From: a virus
DNA length: 53,526 nt
Direction: 5' to 3' (one strand)
IMG/VR virus record: IMGVR_UViG_3300028558_000005
Location: 1 to 53,526 of that record
Part shown: one piece after another, positions 5,842-50,758 of the stretch
Layout of the letters: each line of letters opens with the position of its first letter
Position numbering within the stretch: position 1 is the stretch's first letter
The notes under the pieces: generated by a model
What the model saw: the letters and a program-made list of their open reading frames with translations, nothing else
Database searches by the model: none
Told to the model about the DNA's origin: nothing
Program-made: the position numbers and the translations under genes

Positions 5842-6873
5842 ATGAGCGTGACAGATCAGGGAATGGTAAAGCACGAAGTAAAGATTGGCTACCAGCCGAA
5901 GCTCGGCAGACCGCAACTCAAGACGCGGTGTGCCGATTTAGCAATCACCTGCCAGCCGGGAAGCGTTGAGGAGAAGTCACTGGTTGAGAGTATGTTCAAT
6001 TATCTCTCAACTGAACTGGGCGGGCAGTACCGTTCAATGTGGATTGCCAGCATCAAAGCTGGCGATCGTGAGCAAAAATGGGGAACAGGAGAAAGTATTT
6101 ACGTGAAACATCCAGCAGATGACAAACCCAAGCCAGCCGATGACCGCAAAGCGCCACCTGCCACAAGTGCCGCGAACCCGTTCACTCGTGAGCAATGGGG
6201 CGAATGGGCAAAGCCGTGGGTAGTACTGGGCTACGACCCCGTACAGGAAATCCCCGAGATTTTGAGCACTGCCCAGAAAGCACGAGGCGGCGAGAGCTTC
6301 ACCCGTGTCTCACAGTGGGACAGCTCACTCGAAGAAGCCAGTGCAGTGATGAGCGCTTACCACAGCTCAGCAGTCAGCGACCATGAATCAGCGATAAACG
6401 ACGAGCGTGACACGTCGCCAGCCCGCCCACCAGTACAACCACAAGCCCCACCCTCATCCCGTGAACCCTATGAGGGTCTGAGCATCGAGGACAAGCGCAA
6501 CGCCATCCGTATTGACTACACCATCCGTATCGGCAAAAAGGACTATCTGCAAGTGATGGGGCGCGTCCTGCTCTTCAGGCTCGACCACCCGGTTCAGAGC
6601 GGCTGGGCGATTGAGACTGAGCTGTCGCAGTTTGACCCGGCGGCGGGCTGGGCGCTCAGTCGCGCAGTGGTGCGGGATGATCTGGGTCGTGTCGTTGCCA
6701 GCGGGCACGGACTGTGTACGCTCAAGGGTGCAGCCCAGGCGCAGGGTCGCTATATCGAGAAGTCGGAGACAACTGCCATCGGACGGGCACTTGCTATCGC
6801 AGGTTACGGAAGCGACGATTCTTTGGAGGATGACGCTAGCTTTATTGCAGATTCTCCGGTGGATCGCAACTAA
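5842..6873 (+). CDS. Putative Rad52/Erf-like single-strand annealing protein
   Basis: 343 aa. The C-terminal part (about 215-330) carries IRIDYTIRIGKKDYL, a VLLFRLDHP.GW.IETE segment, and finally the pattern YIEKSETTAIGRALAIAGYG. The last pattern (Y.E.AET.AIGRAL..GYG) is typical of phage Erf/Sak-type annealing proteins and related DUFs. The middle (105-210) is Pro/Ser-rich linker. The start follows CACAGGAGCA. A role in phage recombination or replication is inference; the N-terminal 100 residues are unrecognised. Confidence 0.5.
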   Translation: MSVTDQGMVKHEVKIGYQPKLGRPQLKTRCADLAITCQPGSVEEKSLVESMFNYLSTELGGQYRSMWIASIKAGDREQKWGTGESIYVKHPADDKPKPADDRKAPPATSAANPFTREQWGEWAKPWVVLGYDPVQEIPEILSTAQKARGGESFTRVSQWDSSLEEASAVMSAYHSSAVSDHESAINDERDTSPARPPVQPQAPPSSREPYEGLSIEDKRNAIRIDYTIRIGKKDYLQVMGRVLLFRLDHPVQSGWAIETELSQFDPAAGWALSRAVVRDDLGRVVASGHGLCTLKGAAQAQGRYIEKSETTAIGRALAIAGYGSDDSLEDDASFIADSPVDRN

Positions 6874-7493
6874 TGTCTAATCTTCGCCATTGCTCCCGAT
6901 GCGGTAATGAGTACCCAGCCACACTGGAATACTTTTATCACGTTAGCCCACGCACTCGCAAAGATGAGCTATCGAGCTGGTGTAAGCATTGCGTGAGTGA
7001 AGCCGGGAAACTCAGTCGCAGTAAACACGCTGACAAGGCAAAGGTGAGAGCCAAGAAATATGCAGTAGAGCATCGAGAGCAAGTTAACGCCAACGCCCGC
7101 GAATATGTCAAACGCAATCCTGAAAAGCGCAAAGAAACTATGCGGGCTTACAGCGAGACACATCGAGAGCAAGAGCGGGAAAAGAAGCGACGATGGCGAG
7201 CAAATAATCCAGAGAAGCATCGTGCCGAAAAAGAGCGCCGTCGGGCTTGGAAGCTCAACGCCGAGGGCGAATATACTGCCGATGACATTAAGGCTCAGTA
7301 CAGTCGTCAGAAAGGAAAATGTTATTGGTGCAATGTCAAGCTAAACAACAAATACCACGTCGATCATATTGTCCCACTGTCTCGCGGCGGGTCAAACCGT
7401 CCTGACAATATCGTTTGCGCTTGCCCTCACTGTAACGACTCTCGCGGAGCCAAGCTGCCGCATGAGTGGGTACAGGGCGGCAAACTTCTATAA
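6873..7493 (+). CDS. HNH endonuclease with N-terminal zinc finger
   Basis: 206 aa, TAATG overlap with the upstream gene. An N-terminal CSRCGNEYP...CKHC zinc ribbon and a basic coiled region (40-140, K/R/E-rich) lead to a C-terminal HNH core: CYWC, then HVDHIVPLSRGG, N, and CPHCNDSRG. It ends KLPHEW..GGKLL, almost the same as the HNH protein at 38456-39055, so the two are paralogues. Probably a free-standing homing endonuclease beside the annealing gene. Confidence 0.85.
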   Translation: MSNLRHCSRCGNEYPATLEYFYHVSPRTRKDELSSWCKHCVSEAGKLSRSKHADKAKVRAKKYAVEHREQVNANAREYVKRNPEKRKETMRAYSETHREQEREKKRRWRANNPEKHRAEKERRRAWKLNAEGEYTADDIKAQYSRQKGKCYWCNVKLNNKYHVDHIVPLSRGGSNRPDNIVCACPHCNDSRGAKLPHEWVQGGKLL

Positions 7494-7520
7494 TCTAGTT
7501 CACACAAGGAGAAGGGTCAA

Positions 7521-7838
7521 ATGGGTCAAGATAAGCCGCAGTTGAATAAGAAGTACACCAAACGTGAGTGGCTGGAAATCCGCCAGCGCATCTATCTGGG
7601 GCGCGTCGGAATGCTCGCCTCTATTGCAGAGGAGCGCGAGATGCACGCCGAGAACTCTGAGCGCATCATGGCTGAGCTGACCAGCAAGCCGCCCGACCTC
7701 GAGGGAGTTATGACTGCTATGGCACTGCAAGCCGGGTTCCAGTTCATTACCATGAAAGCCAAAGCGTGTATGGCAGCCATCGAAGAGGACCACGAAGAGT
7801 TCAAGGAAAGAGGCATCATATGGAAAATGACGGAATAA
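7521..7838 (+). CDS. Hypothetical protein, 105 aa
   Basis: The ATG follows ACAAGGAGAAGGGTCAA, one of the clearest copies of the genome's GGGTCA leader. The protein is helical and Met-rich with no recognised domain. Its end overlaps the next gene by 19 bases. Confidence 0.6.
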   Translation: MGQDKPQLNKKYTKREWLEIRQRIYLGRVGMLASIAEEREMHAENSERIMAELTSKPPDLEGVMTAMALQAGFQFITMKAKACMAAIEEDHEEFKERGIIWKMTE

Positions 7839-8578
7839 TCATTCGAGACATGACCGAAGCCGAGGCTCGGCAGAGTGTCGTTGATGTGAACAAACAGGGT
7901 GAAGAGCTGCGCCGGATGCTGTGGGACACCTACGAGCGCAATGCTCATCTGGCGCTGGGCTATGATAGCTGGCGGGCAATGGCGGGGGCCGAGTTCAAAA
8001 TGGGTCAGACCGCCGCCTATTACACACTCAACGCTGCCCGGGTTGAGCGCGGCATCGCCAACCTGCCCGACACCGAACCGACTTTTTCACAGTTGTGTAA
8101 AGATTTGCCCGAGTCAGTCTTTCGCCCCCTGATGGGTGTCGATGACCCGCTCGAGCAACGAGTGATCCTGCAACTGGCCTGGTCAGTAGCCAAAGGGGTC
8201 AAGAGTGGTGTGCCTACTCAGGCGCTCATCGAAGAAGCGAAGGGGGTTGTGGCTGACATCAAACTGACCGAAGGCGGCGTAGACATCGGTGACGGTCAGT
8301 GGACCGCAGCCGAGGAGAGTGTCCGCGCCAACTGGACAGCACGTCAGGCTGCTCACATCAAACGCAAGATGGGTGAAGAGCCGCCGCCAGCTCAGAAAGA
8401 CGACCAGCAGCAACTGATGGATATGCTCATCAGGCACGCCAGTGTCCGCATCGTGAGCACCAACGGGCGCAACGTCACGCTGATGCTCGAGCTGGACAAA
8501 GATGCCAAGACTGCCAGCAAGCTATGGCGCGAAGCCGCCCAGGGTCTATTTATCGACCTGTACAGAGACAAGGAGTAA
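7820..8578 (+). CDS. Hypothetical helical protein, possible DNA-binding
   Basis: 252 aa from the ATG at 7820 (GGAAAGAGGCATC upstream). Residues about 30-75 (LWDTYERNAHLALGYDSWRA, then MGQTAAYYTLNAA) look like a winged or HTH segment as seen in some plasmid and ParB-neighbour proteins, but the match is weak. The middle is acidic, and residues 190-215 are basic and Gln-rich. A one-mismatch copy of the 16-bp palindrome lies inside the gene (8085-8100). Confidence 0.4.
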   Translation: MENDGIIIRDMTEAEARQSVVDVNKQGEELRRMLWDTYERNAHLALGYDSWRAMAGAEFKMGQTAAYYTLNAARVERGIANLPDTEPTFSQLCKDLPESVFRPLMGVDDPLEQRVILQLAWSVAKGVKSGVPTQALIEEAKGVVADIKLTEGGVDIGDGQWTAAEESVRANWTARQAAHIKRKMGEEPPPAQKDDQQQLMDMLIRHASVRIVSTNGRNVTLMLELDKDAKTASKLWREAAQGLFIDLYRDKE

Positions 8579-34694: not shown

Positions 34695-36287
34695 TTAGGA
34701 GTCTACGCGAGCACCGACAATTGCCGACTGTGCGTTGGGCCAGTAGCACTTGAGGGTTTCGTTGTAGAACACGTCGTAAGGGAAGCTCCGGTCAGTGCGG
34801 CCCAGCTCGAAGTAGGTGTAAGGAATTGGCACGTCAAGTGCAAATGCCTTGCCCACGCGAGAATAGGGCAGTGTTTCCGGTGGAACGTCTTCGCTCAGGA
34901 ACATGAACACGCCATCCGGGCAGTAGGGATGCGCCCAGACTTCGATGCTCTGTTGCATGTTGATCATGCTGCTGGTGAACTTATTCACGTAGCCACCGAC
35001 GTACAGACCGCCCACAATGTTGTTGCGGTTCTGATACACGTCGAGACGGAACTGGTTGTTGTTGCCAGCACTGGCGATCTTGTTTGCCAGCGAGACAATG
35101 CTGTTCGCTGAGCAGATGATCAGACTGGGGCTGGTGTGGTTGTTTACCCACTGGCTTTGCAGGATGCTGTCAAACTCGGCAATACCTGTCGCATTGACAG
35201 TCAGTCCGAAGCCGCCCAGGTCCTTGACGATACGGGGGGTTGCACCGCTGGCGGTCAAGTCAACGCCGTAGATCGTGTTTTTGTTCAGCCAGCTAAACAC
35301 ACCCTCGAACATATTGCTGTTCACCGTTGCATCGGCAGCGGGTGGAATGGGCTGCGTGTTCGCCGGGATGCCCTTGATCTGGACGTGGTTCACAGTCACG
35401 AAAGTCTGACCTGTTGGCACGACAATCGGGTCGCCCAGTGTCGTCAGGAACGAGCCAGAACCGTCCTTAAAGGCATAAGCGAGCTTGGTGTTCGGGTCGC
35501 ACAGGAACAACGCGGCAGCCGTGTGTCCAGCGCCAGCCACAGCGTTCGCATAGACCTTGTAGCCCAGCGCGCCGGGAACATAGGGCCAGCTCACGTCAAG
35601 GTAGTCAGCCGTGGCAGCACCGACACTGATGTCAGCGAAAGCGGTGCTCAGTGCAGTCTCACCCGTGTTGCTGTTTGAAGTGGCGTTGGTGAGTGTGCCC
35701 TGTCCAGTGATTGCCGTCACAGCCACCGACCAGGTTGCGTTCGAGAAAGTGCCCGCCGTGTGCAACGTTGAGGCATTGCCAGTGACGGTGGGAACACCCA
35801 GCGCCGCACGGTTGCCGAATAGCACCTGATACTCTTCGAGCCGCATCAACGCACTGAGGGCCATCATCGTGTCAAGGTTCATGGCGTTATCCCAGCCCTG
35901 AGCCTGAACGATGGCTTCAAACTGGACACCGCCGTTAATTGACTGCGAGATATAGTCAGCCAGAATGGTCGTGGCTGATTCAGTGGTGGTCGGGCCGTTT
36001 GCGCCGTTAGCAGTACCAAAGCTGCCCGCCGCACCGAAGTTGAACGAGCCATAGCCTAACTGCATACGCCATTGCGCCTGGGCAGCACCCATCTGCGGGG
36101 TGTCTGTGGGCATACGCTTGCGCAGTCCGGCAAAGAAGGGTTGCAGCCATTTGGCCTGTGGCTCCAGATTGATACCCAGAAAGCCCGCGCTGGTGGTAAG
36201 TGCCTTGCGCAGCTCAGTCGGGTTGTTGGAGAGCTGGTTTGTCGGCAGTCCCGACAGTTGGGCCAGCAATTGCATTTCGTTGTTCAT
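34695..36287 (-). CDS. Major capsid protein with Ig/FN3-like insertion
   Basis: 530 aa, longer than many HK97-fold capsids. ESATTILADYISQSINGGVQ and AMNLDTMMALSALMRLEEYQ match encapsidation-family core helices; the C-terminal third (PYSRVGKAFALDVPIPYTYF) is the usual P-domain end. Residues about 178-295 (WSVAVTAITGQG, then LDVSWPYVPGALGYKVYAN) look like a fibronectin type III-like or Ig-like insert, which would be surface-exposed. Identity is supported by position after the protease-scaffold gene. Confidence 0.8.
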   Translation of the reverse strand: MNNEMQLLAQLSGLPTNQLSNNPTELRKALTTSAGFLGINLEPQAKWLQPFFAGLRKRMPTDTPQMGAAQAQWRMQLGYGSFNFGAAGSFGTANGANGPTTTESATTILADYISQSINGGVQFEAIVQAQGWDNAMNLDTMMALSALMRLEEYQVLFGNRAALGVPTVTGNASTLHTAGTFSNATWSVAVTAITGQGTLTNATSNSNTGETALSTAFADISVGAATADYLDVSWPYVPGALGYKVYANAVAGAGHTAAALFLCDPNTKLAYAFKDGSGSFLTTLGDPIVVPTGQTFVTVNHVQIKGIPANTQPIPPAADATVNSNMFEGVFSWLNKNTIYGVDLTASGATPRIVKDLGGFGLTVNATGIAEFDSILQSQWVNNHTSPSLIICSANSIVSLANKIASAGNNNQFRLDVYQNRNNIVGGLYVGGYVNKFTSSMINMQQSIEVWAHPYCPDGVFMFLSEDVPPETLPYSRVGKAFALDVPIPYTYFELGRTDRSFPYDVFYNETLKCYWPNAQSAIVGARVDS

Positions 36288-36317: not shown

Positions 36318-38345
36318 CTACTGCTGAGCATATGCCGGGTAAGCGGGCATAGTCTCAGGCAAGCTCGGTGTAAACGTATTCTGAGTGAGATAGCCCTTGC
36401 GCAGGGCCATGTTGGTGAAATCCGATTGTCCCTCACGCAGCGCCTGACCACGGGCCAGTTCGCGCAGTGCGGTGATGTCGGGCCGTTCTGGATTGAGCAC
36501 ACGAGCCGCTGCCACAACGTCACCCGTCTCGAGCAACTTGCGCAGGGCCGGGTGCATTTCCGGCTCGGCAGGTGCGGCTGGCACTGGCATCACGTTGGCG
36601 AGGGGCTGCAACATTTTCTGGATAGGTGCGCCGGGATTGACGATGCTCGACACAATCTGAGTCAACTGGCTCAGTTGCTTGGTCAGGTTGTCGATTTGCT
36701 CATCACGCTTGTCCATTGTGGCTGGCGTGCTGGTGTCCGTTGTGGTGGTCGTGGCTGGCGTACTTGCGGTTGTCGCACCAGCTTTGTCCATCGTGGGGCC
36801 AGTCGTTGCAGTGCTGGGCACAGACTGAGTGGGCGCGCTCTGAGGCGTGCTCAGCGGCGTGCCGCTGGCTTCGCTCATCGGTGTGCTGCCCGAAGTGCCC
36901 GACAGACCGCCGCCTGTTGGGACGGATGGAGTGCTGGGCGTGAGTGCAGTTGCCAGCGTAACGCTGGGTGTGCCGCTCATGGCAGCCTTGCCGACAGTTG
37001 TGTCGGTGTAGCCCTGCTGTGAGCCAGTTGGCGGGGTAGGATTGCTCGTTCCGGTGTCAACACTGCTGGTGGTCGTGGCGCTCGAAACATTGCCCATAAG
37101 TTGCATTAGCAAATCGCGGGCTGCGTTGGGGTCTTTGCCGATCTGGTCTACGGCAACATTAATCCCTTGCATGAGTTGAGATACCAGGCCGCCCAGGTCC
37201 ACACCCTTCTCAAGTGTTGGTAACATTTTAGGAGCCTCAACTTTCATTATCTGTCGTTTCGTCGCGTCGTAGTAGTAGTCTCCACCCCGGATCAATCGCG
37301 CTTGCTTGGCAAGGCGATGGCCCAGGATGCTACGCTCGCGCAGTTCGTACCCGTGCAAATCCTGACCGCTGTTATACTTGGCAATCGCGGTATCGAGCCG
37401 CTCCAAGTTGTCCATAGGCCAACGCAAGTTGGCAGGATCGCCCCAGTCGGCAGAGTTCTTCGAGTAACCGGGTCCGGTGTCAAGGGGTGCGCCTTCGCGT
37501 CGGTGAATACCGACACGCGCTCCGTAAGCCTTGAGCATTTCAATGGCCCGTTGTTCACTGTCGTGCTGCGCTTTGATCAGAGCCAGCAGATTATCCACAG
37601 CCGACTTCTCGACTGGTTCAGTGCGTGGTGAAGAGATGGGGAGCACCGCTCGTTGTTCTATCAGAGCAGGGTTGGGAGCGCCGGATGCCGGGGCTGCGAT
37701 CTCTTTGACAATCTCGCCCGATGGGACTGTTTCGACTGCGCCCGCGCCCTCTGGTACGTCTACCCCATCAATGATGGCGTTTGCGCCCTCGGCGGCAATC
37801 GCTGGATTCTCATCGGCTGCCGTCAGGCCGTAACCTACTTTTTCCATAATCTCGCTCCCGTCTGCCTTGATTAGTTTGAATTGCGCCGACGGCAAACATG
37901 GCGCATCAACATACGAAATTTCCTGTGGCTCGGCTGTATAAAAAATCTGCTGGCTCATTGGGTCGCGCCAGCGCTTAGCAGTGCCGCCGATGCTAAATCC
38001 GGTAAGCGTTCCGGTTCTGATTTTTTCCCACGTTGGATCGTCAGTGCAAACCGTTCCAATGTCGATAGCCTTGTCCATATCGTTGTAGTCGATAGCGATA
38101 GCCTTGCCCGCTGCAATTGGTTGGTGCATCTGTCTAATGTTGCCAAGACTTACACCTTCCGGCCCTAGAATTGCCGTTCGATCCATTGCGTCCTGGGACC
38201 ATTTTTGAAAGTTCGGTTTGCTCGTGTCGTAGTGCATCGTTTCCCGCGCCAAGTCTTTTTGTTGTGCGGTGGCACGACCCCAAACCTCATGAGTATTCAA
38301 ATCGACCTTTGTCAACTGGCAGAATAGTTCGAACCTATCATTCAT
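36318..38345 (-). CDS. Prohead protease fused to scaffold-like region
   Basis: 675 aa. The N-terminal 180 residues fit an XkdF-type prohead serine protease: IRQMHQPIAAGKAIA (catalytic His), LTGFSIGG (catalytic Ser), EISYVDAPCLP. Residues 180-400 are helical, 400-550 are Thr/Ser/Pro/Gly linker, and 550-620 has a coiled-coil (QIDNLTKQLSQLTQIVSSI). This is a protease-scaffold polyprotein of the kind processed during head maturation. Start at 38345 after GGAGATTATATC. Confidence 0.75.
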   Translation of the reverse strand: MNDRFELFCQLTKVDLNTHEVWGRATAQQKDLARETMHYDTSKPNFQKWSQDAMDRTAILGPEGVSLGNIRQMHQPIAAGKAIAIDYNDMDKAIDIGTVCTDDPTWEKIRTGTLTGFSIGGTAKRWRDPMSQQIFYTAEPQEISYVDAPCLPSAQFKLIKADGSEIMEKVGYGLTAADENPAIAAEGANAIIDGVDVPEGAGAVETVPSGEIVKEIAAPASGAPNPALIEQRAVLPISSPRTEPVEKSAVDNLLALIKAQHDSEQRAIEMLKAYGARVGIHRREGAPLDTGPGYSKNSADWGDPANLRWPMDNLERLDTAIAKYNSGQDLHGYELRERSILGHRLAKQARLIRGGDYYYDATKRQIMKVEAPKMLPTLEKGVDLGGLVSQLMQGINVAVDQIGKDPNAARDLLMQLMGNVSSATTTSSVDTGTSNPTPPTGSQQGYTDTTVGKAAMSGTPSVTLATALTPSTPSVPTGGGLSGTSGSTPMSEASGTPLSTPQSAPTQSVPSTATTGPTMDKAGATTASTPATTTTTDTSTPATMDKRDEQIDNLTKQLSQLTQIVSSIVNPGAPIQKMLQPLANVMPVPAAPAEPEMHPALRKLLETGDVVAAARVLNPERPDITALRELARGQALREGQSDFTNMALRKGYLTQNTFTPSLPETMPAYPAYAQQ

Positions 38346-38455: not shown

Positions 38456-39055
38456 GTGACTTCTAAAATCTGTACCAAGTGCAATATTGAAAAACCGCTC
38501 ACTGAGTTCTCGAGCGACACTTCTCATCAAGACGGCTACCGTAGTCAATGTAAATGCTGCGTCGCTAATCGAGTTGCTGCGTGGCGCGAAGAGCACCCAG
38601 AGCTTGTCAAGGCGAGAAGCAAAGCGAGCCGTGCAAAATTTCACGACGAGCGTATCGAGCGTGACAGGAAATACTATACTGAGCACGGCGACAAACAGAA
38701 GGCACAAAAGCGCGAGTATTACCAAGAGCATCGCGCCGAAATTCTCAAACGTAATAACGATTGGGCTAAATCCAATCCAGAAGCTAAGAAAGCCGTTAAT
38801 CATCGCCGCCGCGCCCGCGAAATGGGCAACGAGGGTTCGTACACCGCCGATGACATAGAACGTCAACGCAAAGCTCAGCGCGGCAAGTGCTATTACTGTG
38901 GCAAAAAAGGCAAATTGACCATCGATCACATCATTCCGTTGGTGCGTGGTGGCACGAACTGGCCTTACAATATCGTACTGGCCTGTCCTCGTTGCAACAG
39001 CGGCAAGGGTGGCAAATTGCCCCACGAGTGGCCTGATGGCGGTAGGCTTCTGTGA
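38456..39055 (+). CDS. HNH endonuclease inserted in the late operon, antisense
   Basis: 199 aa from a GTG after AAAGGTAATCTCCAA. N-terminal CTKCNIEKPLTEF...CKCC ribbon, basic middle, then CYYC, TIDHIIPLVRGG, and CPRCNSGKGGKLPHEW..GGRLL. It shares its domain order and end with the HNH protein at 6873-7493. It is the only plus-strand gene inside the leftward head operon and sits between the gp10-like and protease genes, as expected of a homing element that avoided disrupting a gene. Confidence 0.85.
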   Translation: MTSKICTKCNIEKPLTEFSSDTSHQDGYRSQCKCCVANRVAAWREEHPELVKARSKASRAKFHDERIERDRKYYTEHGDKQKAQKREYYQEHRAEILKRNNDWAKSNPEAKKAVNHRRRAREMGNEGSYTADDIERQRKAQRGKCYYCGKKGKLTIDHIIPLVRGGTNWPYNIVLACPRCNSGKGGKLPHEWPDGGRLL

Positions 39056-39059
39056 TTTA

Positions 39060-39407
39060 TCAGCCATTGAAGTCCCTCACTCCGGCTTTAAAGCCGCGCT
39101 GCATTAAGTCTTGCAATTCTGCCCACTTACCGGGCCAGCCTTCCCACTTGCGCGTACCGTCGAGAATAAACGGCAGGTAGTACGTGCTGCCGAATGTAAT
39201 TGACTTGCCAAACTCTTCGACGTTCCATCCTGCCTTGTCAGCAGTCTGATACTGACGACGATCCCCCGATGGGGGCAGCGGCGGATACATAGCACGCTGT
39301 AAGCCCTGTCGAAAGTTAAAGCCCGCCGCATCCAGTCCAGCTTGCCAGCGTATTGCTGGTTGCTGCATCCACTGTTTGCGTGAGACTGCAATCGTAAAGT
39401 CAAACAC
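39060..39407 (-). CDS. gp10-like connector/tail component
   Basis: 115 aa from a GTG at 39407 overlapping the MuF-type stop. YPPLPPSG, then TADKAGWNVEEFGKSITFG and YLPFILDGTRKWEG resemble the HK97 gp10-like family (minor head-tail components with Y...leyGT....). Ordinarily such genes lie near connectors; here it lies before the protease. Confidence 0.5.
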   Translation of the reverse strand: MFDFTIAVSRKQWMQQPAIRWQAGLDAAGFNFRQGLQRAMYPPLPPSGDRRQYQTADKAGWNVEEFGKSITFGSTYYLPFILDGTRKWEGWPGKWAELQDLMQRGFKAGVRDFNG

Positions 39408-40447
39408 TACTGACCCAGCTTTCTGCGGCGCGGCACTCGTGAGGGCGGGACTGCAAACAGGTCAGCCGGGTTGGTGGGTTCATCCAGTGCGCCGATACCC
39501 ACGCCACCAACGCCACCGCTCGGTAATGATGGTATAGATGGGACACTGATGGGCTGCACCAGACTGGGCAGCGCCGGGGCGGGCGTGAGGTTGCGAGAAT
39601 CGAAAGCGCCCGCGTACACATTCGCCGGGGCTTCGGTAGGCTCATCAGGAGCTGCGCTCGCATACTCATCTGCACCGAATATCAACATTCCACCATCCTC
39701 AGTTGCTGGCACTGTGCCGCAACGACATCGAACGTGAGAGTTGTCCGGCGGCATCGGGTCGCCCACTTTGTAGGGGTTGCCCTGCGCCAGCGCGACACAG
39801 ATACTACAGGGCCAGTCGCCGTCCTCATCTGCCAGGTCCCAGTTCCAGTACTGCACTCCGAACTGGTGCATGATGTTGAGACTGACTTGAGAGGTAATGT
39901 ACGTGCTCTCGGTGCGTGCAATACTCTCGGCTCTCGACATCCCAAACTGTGGGCTAAGCTGGTCTATCAACTCTGGCAGACTGGCATCGGTGTTGTACCA
40001 GTCGTGGATGGCGCTCAGTACGTCTGTTTCGGTATCGCGCCCGATACTGGTGATCTTCCGGCCTGTTCTCAGTTGATAGGCTTCAAACAGTGAGGCGGGG
40101 TCTACAGGGGCAGGTCGCTTATTGCGCGTGAGCCAGAACTTGCTTTCTGTGTCGTATAGCTCAGTGACAACGGGCGTAAAAATGCTCTGTAGATCAACGC
40201 CAAAACTATTGATCCAGCTATCCCAGCTAGCATCAGTATTTTCCTTAAACAACTCGGTATCAAGGGCAAAATCATGTGCCTTTGCAATTCGCTTGCGCAG
40301 ATTGGCACGCCGCAGATCGCGCTTGAGCCATGCATAGCGACGTTGTAAAATGTTGTAAATAGCTGCCGCTGCGACGGGTTCAGTTCGATCCCGCACTGAC
40401 AGGAGTAGCTTGCGGCGCTGGGTCGCTCGCATGACTATCGCTGGCAT
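39407..40447 (-). CDS. MuF-type minor head protein
   Basis: 346 aa. Residues about 160-270: RAESIARTESTYITSQVSLN, WNWDLADEDGDWPCSIC, then PPDNSHVRCRCGTVPA, the hallmark of the phage Mu F-like domain (AR.E, C..C, H..CRC). These proteins are packed in the head and aid assembly or are ejected with DNA. The C-terminal 80 residues are Pro/Ala-rich. Its place after the portal is standard. Confidence 0.85.
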   Translation of the reverse strand: MPAIVMRATQRRKLLLSVRDRTEPVAAAAIYNILQRRYAWLKRDLRRANLRKRIAKAHDFALDTELFKENTDASWDSWINSFGVDLQSIFTPVVTELYDTESKFWLTRNKRPAPVDPASLFEAYQLRTGRKITSIGRDTETDVLSAIHDWYNTDASLPELIDQLSPQFGMSRAESIARTESTYITSQVSLNIMHQFGVQYWNWDLADEDGDWPCSICVALAQGNPYKVGDPMPPDNSHVRCRCGTVPATEDGGMLIFGADEYASAAPDEPTEAPANVYAGAFDSRNLTPAPALPSLVQPISVPSIPSLPSGGVGGVGIGALDEPTNPADLFAVPPSRVPRRRKLGQ

Positions 40448-40709
40448 TAGTCTCTACCTTGAGGCTGGCATCCATCTGATCGGCTAGCTTGCGCAGACTG
40501 TTGGCATAGCCGCGCACCAGCATCCAGATCATGATGGCATCGAATGTTGCTTTTAAGTCAATCCGGTTAATGTCAAACTGCTGGCGACGACCCAGCAGTG
40601 CTGGCGCGTTACCTGCCACCGTCTCAGCCAGCATCGTCAAACTGGCGTACTCATCATGAGTGCATTCAATCAGCACGTTGCCGTTGTCGCCGTAACCATA
40701 GCGTCTCAT
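40380..40709 (-). CDS. Hypothetical protein between portal and MuF
   Basis: 109 aa; ATGs overlap portal stop and its 3' end overlaps the MuF-type start by 68 bases. Helical with an acidic Ser/Ala C-terminus (SDSHASDPAPQATPVSAG). Not recognised; the portal overlap supports it. Confidence 0.5.
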   Translation of the reverse strand: MRRYGYGDNGNVLIECTHDEYASLTMLAETVAGNAPALLGRRQQFDINRIDLKATFDAIMIWMLVRGYANSLRKLADQMDASLKVETNASDSHASDPAPQATPVSAGSN

Positions 40710-43336
40710 GTTGCACTTCCTGTTAAATAATCCGGCGTGTAGGGGGCGATAATACGCTCATCCAGCAAGCGCTGAGCACACACGCGGGCTTTCTGCACTG
40801 CGGCATCCCCAACGAGGCGCTGGATGTCAGACCACACGCTCGCGTCGTTGATGCACTGCACAACTGCCATCAGCGCGTCATCCGACAGCGGCATATTCAC
40901 CCAGGCCTGACAGAACAGACTATCGCAGAACTGCTCGGCTCCTGTCGGGAAGCACAACCCGTTATCGAACAGAATAATCCGGCCCGGGTCGTCGGGATGC
41001 GTGCCGTAATTGTGATGATATCCCCGGTCAATCTGGCTGGTGATGTAGTCAAACACAGCGGCTCGTTCAATCCAGAAGGGTGCGTACTGGCTGACATCTT
41101 TGGGTGGCTGCATTCCCTGAGTGTAGTAGACAGCAGCCCCAGCCTCATTGTCAGCCCATGTGACATAGGCCACCGGGACCATCATAAAGCCCAGCGCCCT
41201 GTCAAGCAGATACGCCGCTTCCTCGCGTGGATACTGTGGCCCACCTATCCAGTCCTGCAATGCCTCTACCTCGTCGCCTTCCGGCTTCCATAGCGCTGCT
41301 TTGGGGGGCAGACCGCCGCCCGGGGTCATCGCTACAATCTCGACACCGTTGGCGTGGTTCAGATTGGGGAAGGGTAATGTAATCTCACGCGAGATAGGTG
41401 CGCCAAAGTAGTCATCGTCGTCGGGGCACACTCCACAATGCTTGTCAAGTTTCACACTTGTGAAAATAACCTTATCCGCCGGGCGGGTGCTCGGCGTGCT
41501 CACTGTACTCTCAACAGTCTCGACGGGCAGCTCGGCTGTTTGACCTTCGGCGTAATCGTTGAGCATGTCCACAATTGTCTCATTGTGCTCATGCAGTGAA
41601 TTAACCGGAGCGACTTTGGCGACGAGCTTTTTACCTGACGGAATTGAGATTGTCTTGCCGTCAAGCGTGCCGCTCTCCATTGCGTGACGGATAGCACTCT
41701 GTATCGTGTTAAAGTCTTGCCCACTGTGCTGCCCGCCGTCTTGCTCCATTGCCGTCTCGGGGCCAGCCGGGGGATTGTTACCGCCCTGTCCAGCACCGTT
41801 AAAAGCTGGAACAGCCAGCCCGTTCTGCACATCCATGCGCTCGATAACATACACGTTATTGCCCATAGCAATCAGGTGCATATTGGCGATGTTGTTCGGG
41901 TCGTTCGGATCACCGATGGGCTTCATTTTGAGCTGAGCTTGCGCATCGTTCATGGTCAGAACGCCGTGCGCCATGCCCTCGTACACGTCCTGCTTAAGCT
42001 GACCCGGGTCAATCTCTTCGATGGGATAAGCCAGATCGAATGTGACATCCGTTACACCGCAGCGCGTCAGCACATTATTGAACGGTGCTGCAATGAAAGC
42101 GCGAGCCGGATTAATCATGTTGCGCTGTAAGTCATCGAGCGAACCTTCTTTGAAGCCCTTGCCGCCCAGTCCCTGACCGGGCACGTCGCCGTACTCTGAG
42201 GGCGGGATACCTGCTGCGTGTAGCACATTCTGGACGGCTGTCTTGTACAGCGGCAGCGGGAAGTCAGGCTTCTTGGTAGGGATGTACTTTGTGCCGTCAG
42301 GAAACATCCTCAAGCGCATTCGCTCAGTAGCGGCGTTTGATGACATTCTGGCGTTGTAAGCGATTTCAGCGGCAAGGATGCTGGCTGGCGAGTTGTACTG
42401 CTTTTCAGGCAGCGTCATAAAGCCCTCGGGCATGTTGCCTGTCTTGTAGTGCCCCAGCTCGAAAGCGGTAATAGACACAATGAGCTGTATCCAGCTCCAC
42501 GCGTTCTCGATAAAGCTCTCGCCGTAAGGCGCATTCACCCGTGGGCTGGTTGGCGTGTACCAGATTTGATCCTGATCCCACCAGGCGAACGGGGTCCCTT
42601 TGATGATCTGGGTGAAAGCTGGAATTTTCGTCGGGACGGGCTTGTTTTGCTGTACCCGCAACTGAAACTGCTGTAACCACTGTTCTATCGTGCCAGCCGC
42701 CTGGTTTGCGCCGTTTTGCGTGACTGCCGGGTTGTGAGGCTTCGCATAGTAATTGTTGTAATATGCCTCAACGGATTCAGGGGCCGGGATGTGCCCGTAC
42801 TCGTCAATGATGACAAACAGGGTTGAGCCGTCCACATAATCCATCAGGTTAATTTGCCCGTTGCTGTCAGTGCCGAAGAACAGGGCCGGAGCATCGTAAA
42901 TCTTGCTGGACTTCAAAAAGCGGGTGAGCCACACTGAAAATGGGTCTTTGCGGTTGGGACTAACAGTCATCCAGCTAAACTCGTGGTTTTTCACTTCGTT
43001 GCCAGAGCTGTCTATCAGCCTGGGGCGAAAGCTCGTCATCGTGCGCCAGAACGTGCTGACAGGATTGGCGATCTCCGTCACGTTCATGTACGCCTCATAC
43101 AGTGCTGCGAAGCTCATCAGACCCCAGCCTGTGCGCGGATTGAGGCTCGAGTTCACGCTGATGGGATAATCAATACTGCGTGGCAGTTCCTGATCTCGTG
43201 GTGCATTCACCGGGCGAATGGGCCAGCCCGAGCCATAGGTCGCCTGAGTCCAGTTACGCGGCACGCCAAAATCCTGCCCGCCGCCGGATGCGAGTTTGTT
43301 GAGCATAGCAGAATTGGACATCCGGGCGACAGGCAT
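40706..43336 (-). CDS. Portal protein fused to a PI3/4-kinase-like domain
   Basis: 876 aa, about twice the size of HK97-type portals. Residues 1-530 have portal features (FAALYEAYMNVTEIANPVST, PEGFMTLPEKQY, YGDVPGQGLGGKGFKEGSL). After a linker (about 530-620), residues 640-830 match the bacterial PI3/4K-like (HipA/SCO1664-related) kinase pattern: ALWKP (Lys684), REEAAYLLDRALGFMMVPV (704-722), FDYITSQIDRGYHHN (D770, N776) and ILFDNGLCFP (D791). C634 and C637 lie just before. A palindrome (41450-41465) falls at residues about 624-629, the domain boundary. The kinase could modify head or host proteins or be carried in the virion (inference). Confidence 0.75.
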   Translation of the reverse strand: MPVARMSNSAMLNKLASGGGQDFGVPRNWTQATYGSGWPIRPVNAPRDQELPRSIDYPISVNSSLNPRTGWGLMSFAALYEAYMNVTEIANPVSTFWRTMTSFRPRLIDSSGNEVKNHEFSWMTVSPNRKDPFSVWLTRFLKSSKIYDAPALFFGTDSNGQINLMDYVDGSTLFVIIDEYGHIPAPESVEAYYNNYYAKPHNPAVTQNGANQAAGTIEQWLQQFQLRVQQNKPVPTKIPAFTQIIKGTPFAWWDQDQIWYTPTSPRVNAPYGESFIENAWSWIQLIVSITAFELGHYKTGNMPEGFMTLPEKQYNSPASILAAEIAYNARMSSNAATERMRLRMFPDGTKYIPTKKPDFPLPLYKTAVQNVLHAAGIPPSEYGDVPGQGLGGKGFKEGSLDDLQRNMINPARAFIAAPFNNVLTRCGVTDVTFDLAYPIEEIDPGQLKQDVYEGMAHGVLTMNDAQAQLKMKPIGDPNDPNNIANMHLIAMGNNVYVIERMDVQNGLAVPAFNGAGQGGNNPPAGPETAMEQDGGQHSGQDFNTIQSAIRHAMESGTLDGKTISIPSGKKLVAKVAPVNSLHEHNETIVDMLNDYAEGQTAELPVETVESTVSTPSTRPADKVIFTSVKLDKHCGVCPDDDDYFGAPISREITLPFPNLNHANGVEIVAMTPGGGLPPKAALWKPEGDEVEALQDWIGGPQYPREEAAYLLDRALGFMMVPVAYVTWADNEAGAAVYYTQGMQPPKDVSQYAPFWIERAAVFDYITSQIDRGYHHNYGTHPDDPGRIILFDNGLCFPTGAEQFCDSLFCQAWVNMPLSDDALMAVVQCINDASVWSDIQRLVGDAAVQKARVCAQRLLDERIIAPYTPDYLTGSAT
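41450..41465. promoter_or_regulatory. 16-bp palindromic site, variant, at the portal-kinase boundary
   Basis: TTTCACACTTGTGAAA. Both outer arms are perfect and two central bases differ from the consensus. Inside the portal coding sequence, exactly where the kinase region begins, which is unusual because perfect copies lie between genes. Confidence 0.55.
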
Positions 43337-44658: not shown

Positions 44659-46224
44659 CTATTTCACTCCTGTGAAAAACTTGTCGAGCTTATCAGGGTC
44701 GATGCCAGAGAGCCTGAGCAACTCCAAGATGGGCTCGCTCAATTGCTCGGTGCGTACTCTGTTGTCTGCGATGTCCTGAATAGCATCGAGTGACCAACCC
44801 TGATGAGTCTGGGCGTAGTAGCTCAAGCCTAGCGCGTCGGCGTAGTCAGTGCTGCGGCCTATGCGTGCTCGAATGTCGTCTTTAGATTCAACCTGTATTG
44901 AACCATTAGACGTGTACCACCACGTCGGGGCAGTCAGATCACCGATGAGCCTGTCATCAGGCGGCAACATCAGGTTAATTTCAAGGGCCGGGTCGAGCGC
45001 CTCTCGGATAGCCCACCACACAGCCGCTCTGAGATTGAAGAACCCGACTTTGCCGGAGACATCTTTTGCGTCTGACTTGCTCGAGACATTCACAGAGATA
45101 GCGTTGTAGCCCTGCTCGCTCAGTCGTGAGTACACGCCAGCCCCTACGCCGATAGTGTCAATTGCGATAGGCACTTTGCTGTCAACACGAGCAATCAGTG
45201 TATTGGCAGTCTGCATGAGGTCCTGTTTGGCGAAGCTCTCGAGGCTGACACACACCCGCCCGATTAGATGAGCAAATGCGGTGCGGTCCTCACCCATATA
45301 CGCTACGTCTACACCCCAGCTATCTTGACCGTCAAGCTGAACACCGGACGCTTCCCATTCTCGATAGCGCTCGTTTGCTTTTTCAATCCAGCCCAGCGGG
45401 ATGACCGCATTCTCATCGCTGTCCGCAAACTCACCCAACACACGGTTCTGAAAAACGGCTGAGTTAGCACCCCACTGCTCGCGGCGTTTGTCTACCCAGT
45501 CCTGATTAAAACGCCCGTTCGCAAGACATTCCTCTAAGGTAATGTGACGCGTCCACCAATCTGATAGCCCGGGCTTGTGGGCGTGAATCTCGTAGAACCT
45601 GCCGGACGGTTCTCCCGGTGTTGAGATAGCAAGCGCGTAGCCCGTGCCCGTTGAGAACGCGCCCTCGATTGCATCCCACATATCGACAGGGATTGACTTC
45701 GCCTCATCGAAGACGACCAGCATGATGGGAGCGTGTGCTCCCTCCATACTGCTGGGTTGATCCGAGGCCGCAGCAAAAGCGTATTGCTCGTAGTTATCAT
45801 GCTTGAGCTGAATAGAGCGTTGCAACAGTTCGTGCCCATCTTTGATGTCAAGCCCCAGCACTGACCAGTCAGCCGATCTCGCCCACTTGCGTATCTCGGG
45901 CCATGTGAACTGCGTGAGCTGCCGCCACGCACTGGCGGTGGTCAACACCTTCACTTCACTCTCAAAACAGCTTATTGCCCATAGCACTAAGCACGCGCTC
46001 ATGGCAGTCTTGCCAGCCCCGTGGGGTGCACGCACCGCGACCCGTTTATGGTTGACAAGCGCGAGCATGATCTCGCGTTGATAATCGGTTAGCTCAATGT
46101 GCAGCACATCACGGGCGAACTTATCGGGGCTTTTCTGATAGACTAATTTGCGTTCATGATAGACACTCGTGTTGGACTTGAGGCGGTGCGCCAGTGCCCG
46201 TGCGACTCTACTCTCGGTTGTCAT
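44659..46224 (-). CDS. terL: Terminase large subunit
   Basis: 521 aa from the ATG at 46224 (a GTG at 46233 adds three residues). ATPase: Walker A RAPHGAGKT (about 65-73), Walker B MLVVFDEAK (168-176), coupling motif ISTPGEPSG. Nuclease domain: GVDVAYMGEDRTA (Asp306), AIDTIGVGAGV and a late DYADALGLS. It packages DNA into proheads. It overlaps the RHH gene upstream. The palindrome-like site at 44662-44677 (two mismatches) encodes its last residues (FFTGVK). Confidence 0.95.
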   Translation of the reverse strand: MTTESRVARALAHRLKSNTSVYHERKLVYQKSPDKFARDVLHIELTDYQREIMLALVNHKRVAVRAPHGAGKTAMSACLVLWAISCFESEVKVLTTASAWRQLTQFTWPEIRKWARSADWSVLGLDIKDGHELLQRSIQLKHDNYEQYAFAAASDQPSSMEGAHAPIMLVVFDEAKSIPVDMWDAIEGAFSTGTGYALAISTPGEPSGRFYEIHAHKPGLSDWWTRHITLEECLANGRFNQDWVDKRREQWGANSAVFQNRVLGEFADSDENAVIPLGWIEKANERYREWEASGVQLDGQDSWGVDVAYMGEDRTAFAHLIGRVCVSLESFAKQDLMQTANTLIARVDSKVPIAIDTIGVGAGVYSRLSEQGYNAISVNVSSKSDAKDVSGKVGFFNLRAAVWWAIREALDPALEINLMLPPDDRLIGDLTAPTWWYTSNGSIQVESKDDIRARIGRSTDYADALGLSYYAQTHQGWSLDAIQDIADNRVRTEQLSEPILELLRLSGIDPDKLDKFFTGVK

Positions 46225-46432
46225 CAATAGCACTCAGTAACTGTTTAATGTCGAGAGTACCCTGAGTGGGTAGGGGATGCTCGCTGATGTCGCGCTTTCC
46301 TCTCCATACTGCTCGCATATAAGCACGCAAAGCATTACGGATAATCTGTGAGCGCTCACCGGACGTGAGGGTTCCCATGAACACGATCAGGTCGCGATCT
46401 TCTTCTTCACTCAGCCTAAACGGTATGTACAT
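46208..46432 (-). CDS. Ribbon-helix-helix regulator, first gene of late operon
   Basis: 74 aa from the ATG at 46432 (MYIPFRLSEEEDRDLIVFMG). Strand IPFRLSEEE, helix DLIVFMGTL, turn SGERSQIIRNALRAYMR give the RHH/CopG fold, which binds palindromic DNA as a dimer. A one-mismatch palindrome (46432-46447) touches its start codon and includes its weak ribosome site, so it is the best candidate for the palindrome-binding regulator and may control itself. A longer in-frame reading upstream is less likely. Confidence 0.6.
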   Translation of the reverse strand: MYIPFRLSEEEDRDLIVFMGTLTSGERSQIIRNALRAYMRAVWRGKRDISEHPLPTQGTLDIKQLLSAIDDNRE

Positions 46433-49864: not shown

Positions 49865-50758
49865 TTACTTATCGTTATCCTTGCGATACTTCCTGACCAT
49901 CTTTTTAACCTCATCTGACTTGATAGGCTTGATCTGCTTAAGCTCCATGCCCATCTCGTCCACCTGTTCAAACTGCGACCAGTCGATGTCAGTTCGGCGT
50001 ATCAGTGGGGTGTCGAATTTACGCCACGCGTCCTTCACCACATGCTGCGGCCTGTGAAATCTGCGTTTGGTCTCGACTACGCCAGGCCACATACGCTCGA
50101 GTGCTTTTGCCATGTGCAGTCTGCCGTCGCCTTTGTACAGCTGGTCAGTGTTGCCGCCCTTCATGGTCATCGTCGTCGCCTTGTCGATCAGATAGGCGTT
50201 AATCAGCACCGTGCAATAGCCCCCGGCGAGCGCCTGTAAACACAGGTCGGTATCTTCATTGTATCTGCCGCGCCACGGGTATGGAATGCTGTTGTCGATC
50301 AGGGCGCACGAGTACACATGACAGTTCAGAAAGAAGGGCGGAAACTTAGATCCGTTTGGCAAAAACACTTCGTAGTTCAAGCCCGATACAGCGATGTTGG
50401 TGTAACGGTCAGTAAAGTCTTCGGCAACCTTGAGCGCAATGCCTGAATTGACTGGAATGCGCTTCCCGTTGTACCTGCGCTTGATATTTTGAATGTTGTC
50501 ATCAACCTGCCAGTGCCGCGCCGCCCCTTGCTCGATGGCGTGCTGTTTAATCCAGTTGCGGGCCGGAATGCTGCCCTGCCCCAGATTGCTGAACGGCAGC
50601 ACGAGAACATGTTCAGCGCCATAATGCTTGCTGTACTGATCGGCCTCCTGCGGTTCAACGACCAGCTTAAAGTCTACCCCGTCCTTGAGCAGAAAGCGGG
50701 CTGTCAGATTGTGCTCGTAGCGCCCCTTGCTGGGCACATACACTGGATACTTAGGCAT
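49865..50758 (-). CDS. TET-associated-type glycosyltransferase (predicted DNA-base modifier)
   Basis: 297 aa. The opening VYVPSKGRYEHNLTARFL and the acidic motif HWQVDDNIQNIKRR (DDN at 86-88), then YNEDTDLCLQAL (about 166-177) fit the GT-A fold of the TAGT family, which was described from phage clusters that glycosylate oxidised DNA bases. The overlap with the ParB-like gene and closeness to the small terminase match those clusters. No TET/JBP oxygenase or hydroxymethyl-pyrimidine synthase is visible here, so the acceptor base is unknown. Confidence 0.75.
   Translation of the reverse strand: MPKYPVYVPSKGRYEHNLTARFLLKDGVDFKLVVEPQEADQYSKHYGAEHVLVLPFSNLGQGSIPARNWIKQHAIEQGAARHWQVDDNIQNIKRRYNGKRIPVNSGIALKVAEDFTDRYTNIAVSGLNYEVFLPNGSKFPPFFLNCHVYSCALIDNSIPYPWRGRYNEDTDLCLQALAGGYCTVLINAYLIDKATTMTMKGGNTDQLYKGDGRLHMAKALERMWPGVVETKRRFHRPQHVVKDAWRKFDTPLIRRTDIDWSQFEQVDEMGMELKQIKPIKSDEVKKMVRKYRKDNDK

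Follow-up and report, generated by a model that had tools for sequence, protein, structure and literature searches.

A portal protein with a C-terminal kinase-like domain is encoded on the minus strand at positions 40706..43336 of the window, that is, of the whole stretch of DNA analyzed, a 53,526-base virus record. The fusion gene is an uninterrupted open reading frame of 876 amino acids that runs from an ATG at 43336 to a stop codon at 40708-40706; a sequence-only reading of the same DNA had its coordinates and length right and left the strand unstated. The protein is divided into three regions, all on the minus strand: a portal core (residues 47-479; 41900..43198), a linker (residues ~480-637; 41426..41899), and a PI4K-II/Fam20C-like kinase domain (residues ~638-870; 40727..41425). 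The linker has low pLDDT and little order in the model; relatives have DUF5661 and/or a 2H phosphoesterase domain at this position.

The neighboring head genes are also on the minus strand. Upstream of the portal gene is the large terminase (44659..46233; PHROG_2, E 2.3e-40), which is syntenic in relatives. Downstream lie a MuF/SPP1 gp7-like minor head protein (39407..40447; PHROG_115, E 7e-14; TIGR01641), a probable head maturation protease/scaffold (36318..38345; PHROG_9427, E 1.6e-7; XkdF-like PF14550, E 7e-4), and a probable major capsid protein (34695..36287). The last is inferred from position and synteny, and its match is to PHROG_13692, a family without known function. The order terminase-portal-MuF-protease, by which a portal gene can be recognized, is present in the window and is kept in relatives as far as their contigs extend.

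Residues 47-479 are a phage portal both by profile (PHROG_2662, E 3.3e-17) and by fold. Foldseek searches with the full-length AlphaFold model return the solved portals of phage 812, HK97, T5, HFTV1, and GTA (best E 1.4e-12, phage 812); the model is weak as a whole (overall pLDDT 55) and is relied on for the portal core only. Relatives pass the PF04860 portal cut-off (e.g., 52.7 vs 39.1 bits in L027). The idea that a KHCGVC motif preceding the kinase domain is left over from MuF was dropped, as it has no profile support.

The assignment of residues ~638-870 as kinase-like lies far beyond chance on four kinds of evidence (TIGR03843, PF00454, PDB profile, and Foldseek matches). Taken alone, the window protein has one meaningful kinase match, to TIGR03843 (SCO1664; E 6.8e-8). 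The score of 32.4 bits (E 5.5e-8) in the search with homologues does not reach the curated cut-off of 172.4 bits, and the window domain has no match to PF00454 at E 0.1. Of 14 homologues, 13 match NCBIfam TIGR03843 (best E 1.6e-12) and 10 match PF00454 PI3_PI4_kinase (best E 2.9e-6). The PF00454 bit scores obtained fall just below the gathering score (26.9 bits for the L018 domain vs a cut-off of 27.1), and the best member may sit at the cut-off. When the family profile is compared with all PDB sequences, PI4K-IIbeta ranks at the top (E 8e-5), followed by FAM20A, FAM20C, FAM20B, and PI4K-IIalpha. An AlphaFold model of residues 626-876, built with 14 sequences, has a pLDDT of 88.3 and a pTM of 0.88, and Foldseek ranks human PI4K-IIalpha first against it (E 1.7e-7, probability 1.00), then PI4K-IIbeta and Fam20C. 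By profile and model, therefore, the region is a kinase-like fold of the PI4K-II/Fam20C type, with catalysis inferred. The fusion of portal and kinase proposed from the letters alone is borne out, the structure prediction suggested at that time having returned a kinase-like fold. So is the proposed kinship to SCO1664 and to PI3/4-kinases, supported by TIGR03843 and PF00454, with one refinement: HipA is only a distant match (Foldseek rank 44, E 0.014 vs 1.7e-7 for PI4K-II), the nearest fold being that of the type II PI4-kinases and then Fam20C. As to a HipB-type antitoxin, an adjoining protein of 109 aa gives no more than a weak match to a repressor (E 0.08).

Proximity to the type II PI4-kinases raises the possibility that the domain phosphorylates a phosphoinositide, or another lipid or small molecule, at the host membrane during entry. 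PI4K-IIalpha/beta are the nearest solved fold, the DRG loop agrees with the type II enzymes, and the DNGLxFP motif matches them as well. The fold family, however, also holds protein and sugar kinases (e.g., Fam20C and Fam20B), and so the fold does not give the substrate. The palmitoylated cysteine motif CCPCC is a feature of type II PI4-kinases, and it was not found in the 876-aa sequence. The host is unknown, and phosphatidylinositol is missing from most bacteria. A lipid or small-molecule substrate is therefore improbable, and that the substrate is a protein rather than a lipid is inferred as the somewhat likelier case.

The motifs quoted in the sequence-only reading, K684 in ALWKP, REEAAYLLDRALGF, DYITSQIDRGYHHN, and ILFDNGLCFP, are all present in the protein, and the catalytic set is intact, as had been supposed. 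The presumed ATP-binding lysine of ALWKP is Lys684 (41285..41287, minus strand), and the helix-C-type glutamate of REEAAY is Glu706 (41219..41221, minus strand), located in model helix 77-90. The catalytic loop Asp770-Arg771-...-Asn776 (DRGYHHN) lies at 41009..41029 and the presumed metal-binding Asp791 of FDNGLCFP at 40964..40966, both on the minus strand. Lys684, Glu706, Asp770, Arg771, Asn776, Asp791, and Asn792 are invariant in an alignment of 14 sequences with 38-77% identity to the window, on which the claim of invariance rests; four loci found later, Lys684 included, carry the same catalytic motifs. The Gly after DR, previously regarded as a departure from the usual Lys, is no defect: human type II PI4-kinases have it too, and the PI4K-IIbeta segment in the profile alignment reads DRGNDNW. 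The real oddity is one added loop residue: the Asp-to-Asn spacing is +6 (Asp770 to Asn776) in 5/18 sequences (window, L002, L006, L019, and L020), and most family members have the canonical +5 (DRHxGN and similar). On sequence grounds, this extra residue is the only point at which activity might be reduced.

The longer loop in the window protein and four relatives, together with the lack of activity data, leaves some room for a pseudoenzyme, a kinase fold retained as an extension of the portal crown that contacts protein or DNA. Yet none of the catalytic residues varies even in sequences only ~38% identical to the window, and the spacing is canonical in most members, so that a purely structural domain is a poor prospect. 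Catalytic activity is inferred to be probable.

Pattern scans of IMG/VR yielded 18 non-identical sequences, window included, and portal and kinase are joined in a single polypeptide in 16 of them (the window and 15 others, which answers the earlier suggestion to look for the same fusion elsewhere). The two exceptions are L048, described below, and L018, which is truncated at the 5' end of the sequence; in L018 (3-1547), ~515 aa without a convincing Pfam match precede the kinase domain, possibly another cargo module. The number of independent lineages is below 18, since L002 is almost the same virus as the window, and the part that L043 and L044 have in common is 96% identical. An assembly or frame artifact joining two genes, which the sequence-only reading had named as a way to fail, could find support only in the kinase-only frame of L048. 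It is ruled out for practical purposes because portal and kinase are also joined in contigs that were assembled separately and whose portals diverge, in proteins 30-45% identical to the window protein, and the frame is open throughout. Identity is higher in the kinase domain than in the portal core in 67/77 pairs (mean 46% vs 39%), and the two identities correlate across pairs (rho 0.74), although the 77 pairs are not mutually independent. Purifying constraint on the kinase domain is demonstrated.

Variation between near-identical genomes also bears on selection. On either side of one island (L002 5208-6272), L002 and the window agree base for base, for 5,210 bases ahead of it and 5,317 bases behind it. 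The island comprises the portal gene from codon 740 to the stop and an HNH endonuclease gene inserted on the opposite strand (L002 5611-6240, minus strand). The corresponding C-lobe segment of the window (residues 740-876; 40709..41119, minus strand) is replaced in L002 by a 59%-identical allele; 80/135 residues are identical, with a dN of 0.39 and a dS of ~2.0 (near saturation). Both alleles retain intact catalytic motifs, an argument that the domain is under selection. The island looks like the outcome of homing with co-conversion of flanks. Strain mixing in assembly could yield the same pattern, and both alleles would exist regardless. A second HNH endonuclease gene (window 38456-39055, plus strand), opposite to the head genes, is found in both the window and L002.

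In the relatives, the kinase shares the end of the portal with other enzymes. Three portals (L017:3355-6561, L019:3310-6534, and L020:2175-5726) have a 2H phosphoesterase domain, above Pfam cut-offs, between portal and kinase; the L019 portal also has a weak match to the anti-CBASS protein Acb1 (E 0.11). At L048:3708-6732, the portal ends in an ADP-ribosyltransferase (ART; PF03496, E 1.2e-29), and the kinase follows immediately as a separate 280-aa gene that overlaps the end of the portal gene. Across portal and kinase, L043 and L044 share 96% identity, and beyond that point their terminal modules differ: in L044, a MuF domain fused to the portal-kinase, and in L043, an unknown module (6739-7623) that starts near GGPGSGNFGHAGRPGQVGGS at the position of the L044 MuF. 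The portal of Arthrobacter phage Mufasa8 is laid out as portal-NUDIX-MuF. Judged from these layouts, modular exchange of enzyme domains at the portal C-terminal locus is established, and the window protein has both marks of a portal-effector, an enzyme domain C-terminal to the portal and modular exchange in relatives. A separate oddity of the head genes is found at L006:6804-8369, where the MuF protein has a probable intein (PF14890, E 1.3e-8) at a Cys-rich motif, with a nuclease-like ORF (7527-8249) on the strand opposite to the MuF gene.

The C-termini of portal proteins make up a crown that faces the capsid interior (PMC8703570), so the kinase domain should lie inside the head. The placement at the head vertex proposed earlier thus requires an amendment, to the inner side rather than the outer vertex. 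With a complete kinase domain at each portal C-terminus, about twelve copies would be present per head, beside MuF and the packaged DNA, and their location inside the head is inferred with considerable confidence. Probably, then, these phages build a phosphate-transferring enzyme into every particle, although activity is inferred.

The favored explanation, with a rough probability of 0.55, is a virion-borne kinase effector delivered to the host; its catalysis, substrate, and delivery are all inferred. The kinase would be carried in the particle, possibly released by a head-protease cut, and would enter with the DNA or just ahead of it; as infection begins, it would phosphorylate some target in the host, probably a protein. 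An effector role is the likeliest because portals of the lineage also bear 2H phosphoesterase, ART, or MuF modules. The portal ring normally remains in the head, and delivery would therefore need cleavage; no cleavage site has been shown, biochemical and virion data are lacking, and delivery into the host is an inference that stands at even odds. The extra residue between Asp770 and Asn776 in the window catalytic loop also counts against this explanation, and a constrained, retained domain fits a role in head assembly equally well, with no target gene identified.

That role is the main rival to the effector reading: a kinase that works within the procapsid on head proteins (portal, MuF, scaffold/protease, or capsid protein), is never delivered, and might, for instance, set the timing of maturation or packaging. 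It would account for a domain that is always joined to the portal or directly adjoining it within conserved MuF-protease-capsid synteny, that is conserved more strongly than the portal, and that is kept in every sampled member (in a sample chosen for having it). However, the related portals of Polewnik and Mufasa8, which occur with MuF and lack a kinase match, presumably assemble; the L048 domain is detached from its portal; and the neighboring 2H and ART modules are effector types in the literature (PMC9503650, PMC5512222). An assembly kinase is thus unlikely, though it cannot be set aside. The broadest form of the effector reading, a widespread phage lineage with a portal that bears some twelve PI4K-II-like kinases on its inner side, delivered into the host as phosphorylating effectors, and a C-terminus that serves as an exchangeable cargo site (kinase, 2H phosphoesterase, or ART), remains tentative and somewhat doubtful.

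By fusing enzymes to head proteins, phages are known to bring activities into the cell as soon as infection starts. In published surveys, PBECR, 2H, InPase, NUDIX, and ART domains occur as fusions to portal or MuF proteins and are interpreted as effectors that are packaged and then injected (PMC5512222; PMC9503650). The window protein resembles these fusions in having an enzyme on a portal head protein whose relatives bear 2H and ART, and differs in that the enzyme is a PI4K-II/Fam20C-like kinase; the locus fits the portal-cargo theme with a new enzyme class. A text search of the literature, which leaves most subscription journals uncovered, did not find a portal fused to such a kinase. Portal-fused enzymes are a known theme, and no report of a PI4K-II/Fam20C-like kinase in that position could be found. 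Remote structural matches in BFVD to A0A6J5S481 (annotated portal) and A0A6B9L6W7 (annotated ADP-ribosyltransferase of Mycobacterium phage Onyinye) mean that unrecognized relatives may already be deposited.

Four other groups of kinases invite comparison. Human PI4K-IIalpha/beta provide the top fold match (E 1.7e-7) and the top PDB profile match and share the DR...N loop and DNG motif, whereas the phage domain has only ~20% identity to them, is smaller and portal-fused, and lacks the palmitoylation motif. The SCO1664 family (TIGR03843) is matched significantly by 13/14 phage members, but the phage domain scores 32 bits against a 172-bit cut-off, and SCO1664 itself is a protein of actinobacterial cells with a link to mycothiol genes (PMC4255298). 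'Gratiaviridae' phages encode a HipA-like kinase that is likewise atypical and lies within the portal-capsid gene block, but as a HipA-related stand-alone gene unfused to the portal (PMC8008677). The kinases of polyvalent proteins also occur within multidomain phage proteins, but belong to the Ser/Thr/Tyr kinase superfamily and themselves lack the C-terminal subdomain (PMC5512222), in contrast to the window domain with its PI4K-II-like C-lobe. If active, the phage enzyme would give a defined kinase copy number in each particle, a directly testable mechanism of host takeover or assembly, and a phage branch of a kinase superfamily whose SCO1664 members lack known function.

The domain was sought in 50,697 phage and 72,556 plasmid records without a convincing find, and two scans of bacterial and archaeal genomes gave only 14-residue chance matches, in Thorarchaeota; no host or prophage is identified as a result. 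The window terminase is closest to those of Actinoplanes and Streptomyces phages, at ~45% identity, a resemblance too slight to point to a host. PADLOC gave no match. Elsewhere in the window, a TET-associated glycosyltransferase gene (49865-50758, minus strand; PF20691, E 4e-47) suggests, by homology, that the phage DNA is hypermodified.
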